A stretch of 64,000 bases of DNA from Leptobrachium leishanense (Eukaryota > Chordata > Amphibia > Anura > Megophryidae), in contig CM019067.1 of NCBI GenBank assembly GCA_009667805.1, positions 162,831,049 to 162,895,048 of the forward strand. Reading direction: 5' to 3'. The notes under the pieces are model-generated. The model made no database searches. It was not told the origin of the DNA and was given only the letters and a program-made list of their open reading frames with translations. Shown here piece by piece: positions 16,403 to 61,706 of the stretch (positions are counted from its first letter, which is position 1; the number at the start of each line of letters is the position of its first letter). The position numbers and the translations under genes are program-made.

Positions 16403-17377
16403 TCACCTGACGCTGGGTTTCATCCCTGGTGATGCTCTGCCAGGCCTCTACTGCAACTGTCTTCAGTTCTTGCTTGTTCTTGGGGCATTTTCCCTTCAGT
16501 TTTGTCTTCAGCAAGTGAAATGCATGCTCAGTGGGATTCAGGTCAGGTGATTGACTTGGTCATTGCATAACATTCCACTTCTGTCCCTTCAAAAACTCTT
16601 TGGTTGTTTTTGCAGTATGCTTTGGGTCATTGTCCATCTGCACTGTGAAGCGCCGTCCAATGAGTTCTGCAGCATTTGGCTGAATGTGAGCAGATAATAT
16701 TGCCCGAAACACTTCAGAATTCATCCTGTTGCTTTTGTCAGCAGTCACATCATTAATAAATACAAGAGAGCCAGTTCCATTGGCAGCCATACATGCCCAC
16801 GCCATGACACTACCACCACCATGCTTCACTGATGAGGTGGTATGCTTAGGCTCATGAGCAGTTCTTTCCTTCTCCATACTCTTCTCTTCCCATCACTCTG
16901 GTACAAGTTGATCTTGGTCTCATCGGTCCATAGGATCTTGTTCCAGAACTGTGAAGGCTTTGTTAGGTGTTGTTTGGCAAACTCTAATCCGGCCTTCCTG
17001 CTTTTGAGGCTCACCAATGGTTTATATCTTGTGGTGAAACCTCTGTATTCACTCTGGTGAAGTCTTCTCTTGATTGTTGACTTTGATACACATACACCTA
17101 CCTCCTGGAAAGTGTTCTTGATCTGGCCAACTGTTGTGAAGGGTGTTTTCTTCACCAGGGAAAGAATTCTTCAGTCATCTACCACAGTTGTTTTCCGTGG
17201 TCTCCCAGGTCTTTTGGTGTTGCTGAGCTCACCAGTGCATTCCTTCTTTTTGAGAATGTTCCAAACAGTTGTTTTGGCCACACCTAATGTTCTTGCTATC
17301 TCTCTGATGGGTTTGTTTTGTTTCTTCAGCCTAATGATGGCTTGTTTCACTGATAGTGACAGTTCTTTGGATCTCAT
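16403..17377 (-). pseudogene. Tc1-type transposase, frameshifted
   Basis: DDE transposase of the 13457-18816 element, which cuts and rejoins DNA at TA. Start chosen at 17377 (MRSKELSLSVKQ). The N terminus has the helix-turn-helix wording IREIARTLGVAKTTVWNIL and the GRPRK hook (about residues 30-65). The first catalytic Asp is in LWTDETKINLY, the second in VQMDNDPKHTAK, and the Glu in the NPTEHAFHLLK region near 16515. The reading frame breaks near 17160, 16870 and again near 16540, and the hAT truncates the region beyond the C terminus. Length and order fit a full Tc1 transposase of about 340 aa that has decayed. Confidence 0.9.
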
Positions 17378-17696
17378 CTTGAGAGTTGACAGCAACAGAT
17401 TCCAAATGCAAATAGCACACTTGAAATGAACTCTGGGCCTTTTATCTGCACATTGTAATTGGGGTAATGAGGGATTATCACACACCTGGCCATGGAACAT
17501 CTGAGAAGCCAATTGTCCCATTACCTTTGGTCCCTTAACAAGTGGGAGGCACATCTGCAAACTGCTGTAAATTCTACACCATTCACCTGAGAGTTGGATA
17601 TACATACTCTCAAATTAAAGCTAACAGTCTGCAGTTAAAGCACATTGTGTTTGTTTCATTTCAACTCCAATGTAGTGGTGTATAGAGCCAAATGTC

Positions 17697-18773
17697 TGCA
17701 AAGCTTCAACTGTACACATGTACGCAGACGACACGGTAATCTATACCAGCAAACCAAATCTCCCGCAGCTGGAGGCCGTGCTGCAAGAAGAATTCACAGG
17801 GGTAGAAAAGTGGATCGCAAATAACAAACTTTTTCTAAATACTGACAAAACGGTTACAATGCTCTTTGGAACAAAACCTAAACTACACAAATTGCAAACA
17901 CCCCATCTATGTGTTGGGACAAAATCAAACGGCACACTGACCACAGTCACCTCTCTCAAATACCTAGGTATGTGGTTAGACCCTAATCTATCTTTTGGCC
18001 CCCACATCGAAAAACTCTCATCTAAACTTTACCCCAAACTAGGTGCCCTGTACAGAAACAAATCCTGCCTGAGCCCCACGGTAAGAAAGCAGATTGTACA
18101 ACAAATGCTTATGCCAGCCATTGAATACGGAGATGTAGTGTATGCAGCCGCCCCGCAAACACACCTCCAGAAACTTACTACATTGTATAACTCATTCTGT
18201 CGCTTTGTGCTACAATGTAACTACATGACCCACCATTGTGACATGTTAAAAGAACTAAACTGGCCATCGCTGGACTCTAGACGCACCTTCACCTTTCCAA
18301 CCTGGTGTTTAAGAGCTTTTCTGGGAAGCTACCACCCTACCTGAATATGCTGATTCCCCCAGCAGTTCCCTCATCCTATAACCTCAGATCCAGGACCAGC
18401 ACCTTACTTGCAATACCGCAATACAAAAAGAAAATGGCTCGATCCGCATTTTCCTACAGAGCACCGCAAATATGGAATAACCTCCCAGACGTCGTCAAAT
18501 CTTCCCCCAGTCTAAAGTCCCTTAAGAGCTCCCTATTAGCATACCTCAATACAAAATGCACCTGTAAACATGTAACATAATGGCTACATTTCCTCCATAT
18601 TTATTTTTCTGTTAATCTGTATATTTGGTCCTGTGTTAATATCTTGCATTTTACTATTTTGTATTTCTGTAACCACTCAATGTTCTCGAACCCAGGACAT
18701 ACTTGAAAACGAGAGAAATCTCAATGTATCCTTCCTGGTAAAATCCTTTATAAATAAATAAATAAATAAAAGA
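17697..18773 (+). pseudogene. 5'-truncated L2/Rex1-type LINE: RT C-terminal half and 3' tail
   Basis: The insertion in the Tc1 element starts just before the RT active site: HMYADDTVIYTS (YADD at 17721-17732). It continues through NKLFLNTDKT, KYLGMWLDPNLSF and MLMPAIEYGDVVY to a frame change near 18300, then LPPYLNMLIPPAVPSSYNLRS and RSAFSYRAPQIWNNLP, the usual C terminus of CR1/L2/Rex1-group reverse transcriptases. The 3' end is a (AATA)n-type tail at 18750-18773. 5' truncation and a simple-repeat tail are normal for LINE retroposition. The same family occurs at 62612-63830, and tail pieces lie at 1835, 29458 and 57475. Confidence 0.88.
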
Positions 18774-41232: not shown

Positions 41233-42842
<1,610 letters not shown>

Positions 42843-45189: not shown

Positions 45190-46224
45190 CTGTAACAGCT
45201 TTGCCTGACACATTGTGCTGAGAGTGAGAGATACTGTAACAAGCAGCACTCAGCCCTGTAAGGAGCCACTACAATAGTAATTGTATCCACTGGTTTTCGG
45301 ATGAATGAAATTAGTTTTCATACTAAAGAACTGAAAACGAATTTCTTTAGCAACTAAATAAATTGCATTTTAGGACTAATCCATTAGTTCAAAACGAAAT
45401 TTTGTGCTGTGCACATGTCTAATTATTATTTGTATACGTCATGCACTGCCAGAATGCTGTAACAAAGAAAATTAAAAAATGTAAACAAATGTGAATTTCC
45501 TTTAAAATTTCTATCATCTACAGCGTGTAAAATATTTTTTTTCACATTTTATCTTTCGGGTCTTTGTGGTTATATATTCTATGGGGTACGATTGTTAAAA
45601 AAATTTAAATGGGAATTTTTTTGAGAAACTATGTGATTTTAGCGAACCCCTAAAAAAATCGTTAGTGCAGCATCATTATTCACAATATAATTGAAATGTG
45701 AACAATAGTGCTGTATTAATAAAGAAACAAAAAACAAAAATCCAAAGGATCTCCCTATCTCCACCATAAGGTTTCCAAAGGGAACCCCCTTGGCAGCTAG
45801 GGGTTAATTCTCATACTGACATACTGACATCATCCCCCCATGCGTGATGACGTCAGTGGGTGGGGGGGATCCCCACGTCTGGGAGAGGTTCGCGATCCGG
45901 CACTGAATGGTGCTGGATCATGGACCGGCACCTCAGGGCTTAAAGAGAGGCATGCTGGAAAGGGCAGACTCTGCCCATTCCAGCGGTGCCTCTCTTTTAA
46001 TTTAGTCTCCTCCCAATCGGGAGGTAGATGAAGGACCCCACCCCTTTCTTTAGGATGCTCATCCCCCCAGGGTGGGTGCCTGAAACTGATGTCATTGTGC
46101 CAGCAGGGGTATAAACTCACAGATCTGACTTCAAGAAAGTCCTATCCACGTTGGACCACTGATGGAGAGGTGAGTACCGAACAGGAGGGGGATTCCAATT
46201 GATGACATGTGGGGGATGTCCTCT

Positions 46225-47662
46225 CAGGGCCGGCCCGACCATGGAGCAGTATGGTGCAACTGCTCCAAGCGGCAAATCCTGTGGCCAGTGGGAGGGCGGC
46301 ATATTTTTCAGCCAACCATATGTTCCTGCTGGGCTGAGCGCCTGCGCGCGCGCACACAGACGCAAGCTCAGCCTCTAGCGCACATGTCCCTGCTTCGCGC
46401 GCCGCAGCTCCAGCTCCTCTTACACGCTGTGACACAGCGCTCCGGCGCCTCATCAGTCATGTGGGCGGTGGGAAGCAGCTGGACGAGTTGAGCGCTCGCG
46501 AAGGACCCCATCACCTCACCCCTTGCTTCTCTCGGACAACCAGGCAGGCAGGCAGGTAGGTATGTTTGTCCATGAGTGTATCACCCTGTCCGTGGCCGGC
46601 CCCCGATCACACAAATACAGAAAAGTTGGTTCCGGGCGGCGGCTGACATATAGGAGACTGTGCACTGGACCCTGCCCCCGCTTCAGGCCGAGTCCCCGGC
46701 ATGTCTTGCATGCCCAGCCGCGTGTTCTGCAGCTTGGAGCGCTGCCCTACGCAGAGGCCTCAGTGGTGCAGGAGTGCTGGATGAGGGCGGCCAGGGATGC
46801 CTCCGAGCTCTGGGACACCATGCCATTTACACGATGGGGATCCGGTGGGGCCTGTACCTGGTGCAGGAGGAGGAGAGACTGCGGCCCGGTACTTGGCCGA
46901 CTTCCAGCTCCTCATCAGTTTATTTCCACGGCCCCAGCAGCAAACTGAGGCTTGGGGATCCAGTCACCGGATGGCACGCTGGGCTCAGGAGATCCAGTGC
47001 TGTCTCAGCTCTTTTGGATCATGTGACTGGACTCTCTTGCAGGATATGGATTCTGCACACAGCTGTACAGAACTTTCCATTCCCTGGTGCTCAGGGGAGA
47101 ATGGCGACTATTATATGAAGATGGCCAGCTGGTCTGCTACCCGGTGCTGCACCTCTCCTGCAGCCTACAGGCTGAAGGTCGCCATGATAGGCCTGTGCCG
47201 GAGCCTCAGGCTGGAGGCGGGCAGGGACCCGGAGACAGGGGTGTGGGTCCAGAACAGGAAGATCTGTGCCATCGGTGAGAGCCTGGGGGGGTAGCTGTGC
47301 ATGTAACCCCATAACTGGCCTGCCAGAGCCTCCACGTCCCGCTTGACACCTGTCACAACTTTACCTTTGCTGGGCAGGAAAAGTGCTGCCCTGCAGTGTG
47401 AATGTTCCTATGCTGCTGGAGGCAGGTTTTTCTATATGAAAGCATTAATCCTCAGAAAAAATGGATTAGTCAGGTCCCTGACTGTAGCCTGTGAACTGTG
47501 CACACTTCAGGGCAGCATTCTTCATGCATTCCCCATGAAAAATATTGCTAATTTCTGTAGCAGCCTCAGAGCAGCTCCTCTCGGTGTATTTTAGGCAGCC
47601 TGGTGGGGGGGGCAGCATTTCATCTTGTGCTCCAGACAGCACAATGTCTTGGGCCGGCCCTG
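46225..47662 (+). mobile_element. hAT element carrying a captured host exon
   Basis: Ends CAGGGCCGGCCCGACC and GGGCCGGCCCTG, a well-known style of hAT terminus. The duplication is TGTCCTCT (46217-46224) against CGTCCTCT (47663-47670), seven of eight. The 1.44-kb element encodes no transposase. Its interior is unusually GC-rich for this window and is largely a copy of LIPT2 exon 1 with its splice donor and some following sequence (separate entry). Confidence 0.88.
46718..47274 (+). pseudogene. LIPT2: LIPT2 exon 1 copy (octanoyltransferase), broken, inside a hAT
   Basis: LIPT2 is the mitochondrial lipoyl(octanoyl) transferase that moves octanoate from acyl carrier protein to lipoate-dependent enzymes; it belongs to the LipB family. 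In three frames the sequence gives the family's blocks in order: VLQLGALPYAEASVVQECW (from 46721), AIYTMGIRWGLYLVQEEERL (the VYT-G-R block), FHGP (46924-46935), then after a 187-bp interruption GQLVCYPVLHL (47123), and finally GLCRSLRLEAGRDPETGVWV followed by KICAIG. The coding ends exactly at ATCG/GTGAGA (47274/47275), a consensus splice donor, so the copy was taken from genomic DNA, not mRNA. At least three frame changes and the interruption make it non-coding. The lysine of KICAIG remains; the catalytic cysteine region would lie in exon 2 and is absent. Confidence 0.85.
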
Positions 47663-48242
47663 CGTCCTCTGCATGCAGCGTGCACACATAAGGATGCCCC
47701 CCACACGTCATCAGCAGTTAAAAGGTTAAACAACAGTTGTTACGTTGGGCCAGACCTGGCTGGATGCAGAAAGGGTGTGAGCCTAATGTGCAGTGATACC
47801 ACGAACAGATTTAGAAACAGCATGAGCAAACAACATATTTATTTTAGTAAAACTAAATAAACAGCAGGGATCCAGAACAAAAGGAAACCAGACACAAGGA
47901 TCAGAACCTAAGAACTCTAAGGCTAGGGTCAGAGTGGGGCAGTCGGAACGCGCGTGCAGACGCACTAAATCACGGCGGCAGTAGCAGCACATAACGGCCA
48001 ATGACGGGCAATATACGCAGTACGTGCGTACAAAAGTGCGCCGACACCACGCAACCAGCAAATGAACGCATTTTTATCAGAACGTGAAACCGCTGCTACT
48101 GACGTACAAAGTGCGCGGCGGCCGCATGGCAGCGTGTGTGCGTGATTAGGAGACGTCAGACGCTGCTAGTGTGCGGCCTACATAACGTCCAAACTGCCAA
48201 AGTTTCCTGCATTTCGTTGGAGTGTACCTGCGACCGTTGAAC

Positions 48243-50226
48243 ATGGCTGCTGGACCAGAGATGGACGTGGAGAGGCTGATAAGCGCTGTGGGAGAGCATC
48301 CAGGGATCTGGGATACGGCCTGCGAGCGTTATAAGGACAAGGGGAGGAAGGCGAGCGCATGGGTCGAGGTGTCCCGTCATGTGTACCCGGAGTACGATAC
48401 GTGGTCCGAGAAGGAGCAGCACATACAGAGTGAGTATAATATTATTTAATTCATAATCCCATAAATGTAAATCACAAAAATGATAATAAACAAACAAATG
48501 AAATCATTGATGTGAAAATCAAATGCTCCCCAGCTGCCAGGACACCTCACCTGCATCACTGATGAAATAATTAGATAGAGCATCGCGATACCTGTTGCTG
48601 TATCTATTCACAGCTATGATGTCATAGTTCACATCATCCTCAAGACCGACAACTGTGAGGGTATCGTCAAAATTAAAACCATCCCTGGCCCGCACATAAT
48701 TATGTAGAATGCAACAGCATTTCACTATGTCCACACAGAAGTCCACATTTACATCCAGCGGTCTATGTAGAATCCTCCACTTGTTGGTCAGTATGCCAAA
48801 GGTACACTCCACATACCGTCTCGCCCGCGACAGCCTATAATTAAACACCCGCTTCTTCACAGTCAGGTGTGTCCCTGAGTAGGGCCGTAGGAGGTGTGTG
48901 GATAGGCCGAATGCTTCGTCACCCACGAAGGCATAGGGACTGTCACGTCACTGCCAGGCAATGGTGCGGGTCTGGGGATGTTCAGGGTCCCACTCTCAAT
49001 TTCATTCCACAGTGTGGAGTTCCTGAACAGTGTGGAGTCAGAGTCCTTGCCGTATGAACCGACATCCACATACACGAAACTATAGTTGGCATCTGCCACC
49101 GCAGTAGGCCAATAGAAAAGTAATGTTTATAATTCTGATACAGTGAGCCGCTGTGCGGTGGCTTCACTATGCGGACATGTTTGCCATCCACGGCTCCAAG
49201 GCAGTTTGGAAAGTTGGCTCTCTCCCAGAATCCTGCTGCAATTTCCAGACATGCCGTATGTGTCGGTCTTGGCAAACATTCGCCCTTCATGGTCTCCCAT
49301 ATTGTTTGGCACACCTTGCGGACGATCTCACCAGCTGTTGATCTGCCAACGCGGAAGCTATAATGCAGATCCTTCAAACTGCACCCACTACCGAGATACC
49401 TAGAAGACAAAACAAAACTGTTTGAATATGATCACATACCATGAACACAAGCTAATGTCACTCTCATCATGTTTTTCAGCACAAGAGGCAATGAACAAAT
49501 GGCGCACAGTACGCGACAACTACATGCGCGTCCAGAAGAAGCAGGCCATGGCTGCGCGCTCTGGAGCTGGTGCGAAGAAGGTCCGGGGTACATTTACGCA
49601 GAGCAGCTATCGTTCCTCCGCAGGACCCAGGAGCCGCGCAGGTCTGTCAGCAGCATGGACCAGCCATCGACCTCCGGCACCCAGGCACAACAAATGGTGC
49701 CAGGATTCTGCCAGCTGCCAGGAGGAGGAGAACCAGGGTGGTGCTGAGTCGCAGATGGAGGAGGATTTGGCGACACCACAGGTGGCAGGTACCGCGACAA
49801 CGGCCAGCACCAGACCTGGCCAGAAGAGAAGGCACAGGCTGCAGACCTGGAGCAGGCCATGGTCATGTTCATGGAGGCACAGACCACCCATGCACACCAA
49901 CGCTGCATGCTTGCGGACTCCGTCGACATGTCGTTCTCCAATGCATGTACGCTCCTCCTGAACAGGATGAGCGAGGCGGAGAAAATGGAGTATCGCCACA
50001 GATCTCTCGGGATATTGGAGGACATCCTTTCACGTCCCCATCACGCAGCCGCCTACCATGCTGTGCCACAATCCGCCAGTGGATCTTCCGTCTCCAGTGA
50101 GGTGCTGTCCACCCACCCAGCCATGCCCCTGGAGCCAGGCCACACACGGAGTCGGGGTCCAGCTGTAGCCACACCACCGGCCCTCATGACCCAGATGCTC
50201 CGCGGTATCAGCAACTTTGATACATG
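48243..50226 (+). pseudogene. Harbinger MADF/Myb-like DNA-binding protein, two exons, frameshifted
   Basis: The second Harbinger protein, thought to bring the transposase to DNA and into the nucleus. Exon 1 (48243-48429) starts MAAGPEMDVERLISAV and contains the MADF N-terminal half: VGEHPGIWDTACERYKD and AWVEVSRHVYP. The donor is A/GTGAGT at 48430. The acceptor TTTTTCAG (to 49479) opens exon 2 at 49480, and the joined frame reads HIQTQEAMNKWRTVRDNYMR, completing the MADF fold. After this the frame shifts near 49590 (to YIYAEQLSFLRRTQEPRR and SSMDQPSTSG) and again near 49740 and 49850, reaching a C-terminal BESS-like segment, AEKMEYRHRSLGILEDIL, and ending ISNFDT at 50226. The 500-bp ORFs on the minus strand here are shadows. 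Confidence 0.8.
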
Positions 50227-50814
50227 AGCTAAATATGTTTGATTATTTGTTTGTTATGTGTTATTGTTTTGATTTTGTATATATACTGACCTTCACTTTA
50301 CGACTTGTAATATATGTCCATAATATATTACAGTTTCTTTTCATATTATAGTATTATTTTTCAACATTGTTGTCGGAGTCATTTATGATTATGTACGTGT
50401 GATGTGATGCCCGTGTGTGTGTGTGCATGTAACAGTGGGCATGTGACTACAGACATGATGCACTCATGTCAGGTGACTGGCAGCGATGTCATGTATACAG
50501 GTGTGTGACAGTACGTACCTCAAAGTGATGACCAGCATCTCCTCCGGTGGTATGGCGGGCCGCATGTTGGTGTCCCTCTTGGTCAGCGGCTCCCGTACCC
50601 GCGACAACAGTTCATCAAAGGAGGCGATGGACATCCGCATGTAGTTGAAGAACTTCGCGGGGTCCCTCTCTCGCAGTGGCCTGTACAGCGTCACAAAGTG
50701 TCCATGCGTGGGTCTGGCAGCGTTGATTTCATGAACCCAGGTTCGCCGCTTTCTCTTCCTCTTTAGGTACAGGTACCCCATCACACCAAACACAAAGACG
50801 TGTGCAGGATCCAT
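48519..50814 (-). pseudogene. Harbinger (HARBI1-like) DDE transposase, two exons, frameshifted
   Basis: Nuclease of the DDE_4 family that excises and inserts Harbinger DNA at TWA sites. Exon 1 (50814-50519) starts MDPAHVFVFGV and includes FFNYMRMSIASFDELLSRV and PPEEMLVITLR. The donor is AG/GTACGT (50518), the acceptor TCTTCTAG, and exon 2 starts at 49399, joining to LRYLGSGCSLKDLHYSF as in the family. First Asp: NCLGAVDGKHVRI; second: FVYVDVGSYGKDSD; Glu: NYRLSRARRYVECTFGIL. One-base losses near 49103 and near 48925 (before FVGDEAF) put these blocks in three frames. Stop at 48519-48521. Full-length order suggests fairly recent death. Confidence 0.9.
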
Positions 50815-51054
50815 CTTAGAAAAACGCCACCATCCCCGAAACGACTTTTTATAGCCCTTGCCCTTATTATTTCATTTTTAAAGGGATTAGATTCATCTGA
50901 TTTTTCTCTTTTTTCACCCCACCGTCATGGAATACGTCCAGAATTGCGCATCGTCCGACCACTCAAGCGCATTCCGTGAAAAAATGCGTGCGCACGCATC
51001 GACGTACATTTTGACGGTGGCTGCAGAAAATGCGCTCATCTGTCCCTAGCCTTA

Positions 51055-60264: not shown

Positions 60265-60352
60265 TAATACTAACCTGATTCCTGGATCCACAAACTGTAG
60301 AGGTGCTGCCCGGCAGTGTGCGGAATCATATGCTGCATTAATTATACTGTAA

Positions 60353-60668: not shown

Positions 60669-61706
60669 TTAAGGTGCTGCCCGGCAGTGTGAGGATTCAT
60701 ATGCTGCATTAATTATTCTTCTTACAAATTTGGTTACTTAATCCGTTTGCGTTTGGATTGTAATATTGTGACATCCAGGGCCCCGGGTGGAGATCGGGGG
60801 GGTCCCGGACGCATGGTGCCGCCAGCTGGCCGAATGCCAGGAGCTCCGGCGGCACCCGGCGCAGCTGTGAGTGATCAGGGGGCAGGGCGCTGCTTGATAC
60901 TGCTGCTTGATACTGCAGGGTCCAACCCTGCACTCTTCCACAATACCACAAAAGGGTTACGGTGTGAAGGCACTTGCTGCCACCAAAGGCACAATATTTG
61001 GGTGCACTGACGCTTTTACCAGATTCATATCTTTTTAATATAGGACCGCATGGTCCAACCCTGCACTCTTCCACAATACCACAGAGGGGTTACTGTGTGA
61101 CGGCACTGTTGCCACGCTAAAGGCCCAATTTTAAAGCACCTATTGTTACTTTCATCCAAAGCCTGCATAAGTTTCACCATAATTTAGCCAAAAAATAACT
61201 AAACTTGTTCTGCGTGTCCTAAAATGTCTTTTCATACAGGCTGCCGCCCCAAGCAGTTGTTTATGAATAGATTAAAGGAAAACCATTTACCGTCATTTGA
61301 AATGTCATTTTTTTCTTTTTAAATTTTTCTATACGTCCTACAAATCCGCCACTTCACAGGCAGGTTATGGGGACCTCCTAGGCACGATATTTGAAGGAAT
61401 TTTTCGTTTTTATTTTTAACCCTTATTTCATGGAAAACTCACTGTCCCTTTCAAAAACGTTTTTTTAAAAAACTTTTTGTCCTTATTTCCTGTCCCCCAG
61501 GGCACTACCCGGACCCCCATACACCTTTTATGGCAAATATCTTGCATTTATGCCCTCTTGCAGGGCACTCTAAAAATCGAACTTTTGAGTCCCATTGACT
61601 TGCATTGAGTTCGGTTCGTGTTCGCGTTCGAACTCGAACTTTTGAAATTGTTCAAGTTCGAATGCGAACCGAACATGGGGGTGTTCGGCTCATCCCTACA
61701 TGCCAC

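Follow-up and report, generated by a model that had tools for sequence, protein, structure and literature searches.

A decayed first exon of LIPT2 between the ends of a hAT-type transposon in the frog Leptobrachium leishanense

Results

Boundaries of the element

The window, that is, the whole stretch of 64,000 nucleotides of Leptobrachium leishanense DNA analysed here, contains at 46225–47662 a single element of 1.4 kb with a decayed LIPT2 exon 1 inside it (Table 1). The element has CAGGGCCGGCC ends of the hAT type, and the 8-bp duplications at its flanks, TGTCCTCT and CGTCCTCT, differ by one T/C mismatch. An 8-bp target-site duplication and short inverted ends starting with CAG are features of hAT elements. 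Judged by its 8-bp duplication and end sequence, on which the assignment rests, the element would be a non-autonomous hAT-type DNA transposon.

The whole window was scanned for perfect 12-bp inverted pairs that start with CAG, lie 60–5000 bp apart and carry a flank duplication of at least 7/8. The pair at 46225/47662 is the only one to satisfy all of these criteria, and a qualifying pair occurred in 0 of 100 dinucleotide shuffles. With the flank condition dropped, 29 pairs were found in the window, against a shuffle mean of 0.38 (50 shuffles). The DNA of the window is repeat-rich and inverted pairs by themselves are common there; it is therefore the flank duplication that sets the 46225–47662 pair apart. 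A reading made earlier from the sequence alone had proposed that hAT ends and a 7/8 duplication enclose the LIPT2-like piece, and the perfect 12-bp pair with its flank duplication, a combination unique in the window and absent from the shuffles, bears this out. Neither a blastn self-search of the window (E up to 1) nor a search for the exact 10-base ends turned up the element or its ends a second time. Within the element, 21 bases at 46582–46602 are 76% like its own right end, with GGCCGGCCC exact, perhaps by chance.

Table 1. Features of the element and its flanks (window positions).
Feature	Position	Strand	Basis or remark
Left target-site duplication TGTCCTCT	46217–46224	.	7/8 with 47663–47670
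Left terminal inverted repeat CAGGGCCGGCCC	46225–46236	+	exact reverse complement of 47651–47662
hAT subterminal DNA, probably grading into captured LIPT2 5′ flank	46237–46700	+	composition
LIPT2 exon 1, first part (LGALPYAEAS, YTMGIR, FHGP), frameshifted	46701–46935	+	tblastn with P0001; frameshift alignment
187-bp insert between FHGP and GQLV	46936–47122	+	not present in P0001 or in any other native LIPT2 of the alignment
LIPT2 exon 1, last part (GQLVCYPVLHL, GVWV, KICAI), partly deleted, frameshifted	47123–47274	+	tblastn with P0001; frameshift alignment
Splice donor GTGAGA and intron-like DNA	47275–47560	+	G+C 0.49, CpG observed/expected 0.12; ESLG read-through as in P0003 and P0006
hAT element 3′ end	47567–47662	+	translated match to P0003 residues 136–166, up to 47661
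Right terminal inverted repeat	47651–47662	-	12/12 inverted match to left CAGGGCCGGCCC
Right target-site duplication CGTCCTCT	47663–47670	.	7/8 with left copy

The LIPT2 exon and its insert

The native LIPT2 protein of L. leishanense (P0001) served as the reference for tblastn and for the alignments. Against the raw window it matches 46721–46822 (frame 2) and 46816–46935 (frame 1), linked at E = 1.8e-16, and 47172–47276 (frame 3) at E = 1.4e-12. Without any stitching, the three frames stand in the correct order along the window, just as the earlier reading of LIPT2 blocks in native order but in broken frames had it. The ATG at 46701, which opens with MSC as in several frog LIPT2 proteins, was positioned by eye, the tblastn match itself starting at 46721. 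In a frameshift-tolerant alignment with P0001, 93 of 122 aligned residues are identical and no stop falls within the aligned codons; this identity is flattered, since such an alignment chooses its frames freely. The same alignment contains six small frameshifts, 3 extra bp and one insert of 187 bp, and residues are missing in four blocks; a large part of what follows HL in P0001 (GRLRRS...) has been lost from the window copy. When the stitched window peptide is aligned to native LIPT2 without frame choice, the identity is 68–69%.

A protein search with a peptide stitched by eye from the three frames yielded 14 candidates and 5 hits, of which P0001 was the best at E = 2.4e-37. Because stitching skews a search of this kind, the raw window was searched with native proteins as well. 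Among the single-frame stretches, four in number, the frame-3 ORF gave LplA-B_cat in Pfam (E = 0.0012; 19.3 bits, below the cut-off of 27) and lipB in NCBIfam (E = 0.16), and the other three matched no family in Pfam or NCBIfam. The stitched peptide scored 27.2 bits for LplA-B_cat against the cut-off of 27, and 29.8 bits for lipB (E = 3.9e-7), below the cut-off of 83.55; among solved structures it matched lipoyltransferases from E = 5.3e-6 (three at E up to 1). A protein search with the last 44 residues of the frame-3 ORF returned three candidates, none at E 0.01. Old and broken, the copy in the window most likely has no role as a protein, and a working product from it is unlikely.

At the place of the 187-bp insert, between FHGP and GQLV, two further predicted proteins, P0003 (A0A8C5LNX6) and P0006 (A0A8C5LSP3), likewise carry foreign residues (RWYTD), so that foreign residues before GQLV are common to all three captured sequences. 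The insert in the window contains a pyrimidine tract followed by CAG (AG at 47041–47042), resembling a splice acceptor, and has an open frame that continues into GQLV; for this frame beside GQLV no match was found among solved structures.

Splice donor and flanking DNA

The final base of the exon is 47274, and GT follows at 47275–47276 (ATCG/GTGAGAGC) as part of the donor GTGAGA. The exon thus ends at a consensus splice donor, as had been claimed for it. Where the native proteins compared read AIGVHC, the window, P0003 and P0006 all read AIGESLG, which indicates that the captured piece includes intron-like DNA. A native exon 2 downstream, which according to the sequence-only reading would turn the piece into a decayed gene beside unrelated ends, did not appear: over the ~16 kb downstream of the element that the search could reach, and in the window as a whole, tblastn produced no hit past P0001 residue 145 with E below 1.3. 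A short repeat at 47380–47416, in the intron-like part, recurs at 60303–60336 and 60671–60707 (84% and 79%).

The ratio of observed to expected CpG is 0.76 at 46225–46420 and 0.71 at 46420–46700, falls to 0.41 in the exon and to 0.12 in the intron-like part, and is 0.56 for the window. The CpG-rich first ~480 bases suit a captured promoter region, or may be DNA of the element. In mammals LIPT2 has a divergent neighbour gene, a piece of which might also lie in the probably captured 5′ flank here.

A second copy in predicted proteins

P0003, a UniRef entry of 236 amino acids from L. leishanense labelled 'uncharacterized', was found with the stitched window peptide. It contains LIPT2 exon 1, in which RWYTD separates the FHGP and GQLV blocks, followed by the ESLG read-through and then a tail. 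By tblastn the tail matches 47567–47611 and 47608–47661 of the window, linked at E = 4.7e-6; taken as a plain single hit it scores 31.2 bits, a value equalled by the best of 300 shuffles. A frameshift-tolerant local alignment of the tail against 47276–47962 reaches a score of 105, compared with a maximum of 65 in shuffles of the protein (0 of 2000 reached 105); 179 stretches taken elsewhere in the window, on either strand, gave at most 46. The last residue in this alignment is 166, opposite base 47661, which is one base short of the element end, and the 300 bases available past that end were left unused. The similarity therefore ends with the element, and the right flanks of the two copies differ.

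P0006 shares 116 of 125 residues of the LIPT2 part with P0003, diverges after GPRNG and is without the element tail; the two may be models of one locus. In a protein search P0003 matched 864 proteins at E 0.001, and among the best 120 of these 864 P0001 comes next after P0006, followed by LIPT2 and LipB-type proteins. These relationships suggest that A0A8C5LNX6 is a transposon-derived model rather than an ordinary gene, and A0A8C5LSP3 is probably one as well. The earlier expectation of multiple copies, with the same ends and the LIPT2 piece, stood in part: P0003 joins exon 1 to the same 3′ end, whereas the left hAT end and the duplication of this second copy, known from predicted proteins alone, lie outside what protein evidence covers. 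The hybrid is thus probably present at two or more sites; the evidence here reaches as far as two, the second being seen through a protein model.

Descent of the copies

A tree was built from 15 rows, namely the two copies (window and P0006) and 13 hand-picked native frog LIPT2 proteins. The two copies form a sister pair (93/88), with which L. leishanense LIPT2 groups at 98/95, and Spea, Pelodytes and Pelobates fall outside. This placement beside Leptobrachium LIPT2 puts the capture in the line leading to Leptobrachium, and by the same tree the parent would be the LIPT2 of that line, known as the protein P0001. Over 106 columns shared by the window, P0006 and P0001, the window agrees with the native protein in 76 and P0006 with the native protein in 79, and the window and P0006 agree with each other in 66; both copies thus lie closer to the native protein than to one another and have long decayed apart. 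Over various alignments the copies are 57–76% alike to the native protein. In only four columns do the copies agree with each other and differ from P0001; one of these four residues is common among the 12 other frogs, and another occurs in a single one of them. The case for a common origin of the copies later than the capture is made mainly by the 3′ end that they share, by their foreign residues ahead of GQLV and by the 93/88 fork.

Discussion

Capture and movement of the hybrid

The element is best read as a Pack-hAT, one of the Pack-TIRs, in which host sequence of 100–5000 bp lies between the ends of one TIR element, and it shares this arrangement with the animal Pack-TIRs described in PMC8277862. 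We propose, with a probability of roughly 0.88, that a non-autonomous hAT element captured the start of LIPT2 as DNA and later moved to two or more sites. The captured piece would comprise exon 1 and the beginning of intron 1, probably together with the 5′ flank. Capture at the DNA level is the best reading of a sequence that continues beyond the donor, with the same ESLG read-through in the window, P0003 and P0006; the proposal of such a capture, made before these comparisons, gains from the intact ends and duplication, the intron-like DNA after the donor, the lack of exon 2 in the window and the second copy in P0003. The capture itself may have occurred by template switching, followed by transposition, as in the FoSTeST model (PMC8277862). 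Because a second, different copy of the hybrid can be made out in a predicted protein, the hybrid most likely moved after capture. Given the element ends and the target duplication, it could have been mobilised in trans, by cut-and-paste, by the hAT transposase of another element.

The effects of the window copy were probably those of a passive insertion, and it possibly donated a promoter region and a splice donor. A far wider role can also be imagined, in which a long-lived megophryid Pack-hAT family would have spread the promoter region of LIPT2, along with its start codon, exon 1 and donor, to many sites; transcription of some copies there, with splicing into neighbouring DNA, would yield products such as P0003 and P0006 and give rise to new chimeric genes or to antisense control of LIPT2; we regard this as speculative and rather unlikely.

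Two other histories have a slim chance each. The piece could be a LIPT2 pseudogene that arrived by segmental duplication, its hAT ends being coincidental or separate insertions. It is indeed decayed, and the window holds no other copy or 10-base ends; but its two ends match each other and are flanked by a 7/8 duplication, the homology of the second copy halts one base before the right end, and no exon 2 lies in the window, ~16 kb downstream included. Equally improbable is a Pack-TIR formed in place, when a gap in an earlier hAT insertion was filled, with the second copy arising by later duplication of the locus. Such an origin is the one proposed for most animal Pack-TIRs, and that these are mostly single copy (PMC8277862) speaks for it, but here two copies have different right flanks, with similarity ending at the element end, and for this reason capture followed by transposition fits better than gap filling at one site. 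A processed (retro) copy of LIPT2 within a transposon, to which the sight of coding exon 1 alone might point, has next to nothing in its favour, for the sequence goes on beyond the donor as non-coding DNA, the window showed no exon 2 and P0003 runs on into the same ESLG.

Comparison with known gene-carrying elements

PMC8277862 reports 370 Pack-TIRs in 100 animal genomes, 208 of them hAT and 25 in Xenopus tropicalis; 13.4% contain exonic sequence, the median capture is 224 bp, and four of the 370 (three frog, one alligator) are multicopy. The view in the sequence-only reading that such captures are seldom described for vertebrate hATs was too strong in the light of the 208 Pack-hATs, yet animals rarely have gene-carrying TIR elements in more than one copy, with those four among the 370. 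The screen of that study was aimed at young cases (parent identity of at least 90%, length ratio of 80–120%). At 93 of 122 residues, with indels, the window element falls short of its 90% identity, a cut that relates to age and not to mechanism.

A close case there is Pack-hAT-N8_XT of Xenopus tropicalis (Tan et al. 2021, PMC8277862), likewise an element of a frog with hAT ends and host gene DNA, and likewise at more than one insertion site, although for the window element the second site is known from protein only. Pack-hAT-N8_XT carries 291 bp of the CAPSL 5′ UTR and occupies three sites, each with a duplication of its own; unlike it, the window element holds a coding exon and the start of an intron in 1.4 kb, and is old and broken. 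Ssk-FB4 of Drosophila melanogaster, in the same source, is similar in that a coding gene was captured and reached several sites via transposition, but it contains nearly the whole gene, is transcribed, has a protein that was found and probably has Mutator-like ends, whereas the window element has one broken exon. Turmoil-1 of C. elegans, with host gene fragments in a TIR element (PMC2572040), and the plant Pack-MULE or Pack-TYPE elements (PMC8903248) follow the same principle in other elements and hosts.

In the open-licence literature, the matches listed for LIPT2 within a transposon or as a pseudogene, and for amphibian hATs or gene capture, included no LIPT2 case; those listed for the end sequence of the element bore titles all on other subjects, and for animal Pack-TIRs PMC8277862 was the sole match. 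What is new is a further Pack-hAT, probably multicopy, with a coding exon, in a class that is itself known but uncommon. A multicopy case with a coding exon from another frog family would help to separate template switching plus transposition from gap filling.

Other elements in the window

An Rfam scan of the window gave no family at threshold. Tc1-like transposase pieces (DDE_3 and HTH, some below the Pfam cut-off) on the minus strand, together with an RVT_1 reverse transcriptase piece on the plus strand, lie at 16563–17614, 41453–41944 and 17676–18341. At 48243–50871 there is a PIF/Harbinger-like element. Its MADF exon on the plus strand runs from 48243 to a donor GT at 48430 (Pfam MADF, E = 2.2e-7), and the likely continuation of this gene at 49480–50227 was recognised by eye in more than one frame. 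On the minus strand, a DDE_Tnp_4 transposase piece occupies 48519–48947 (E = 4e-19); 48982–49431 and 50467–50871, which had no Pfam hit, were given to the same gene by eye. If these assignments are right, the antisense exons of the MADF and DDE_Tnp_4 genes interleave, each lying within an intron of the other gene.
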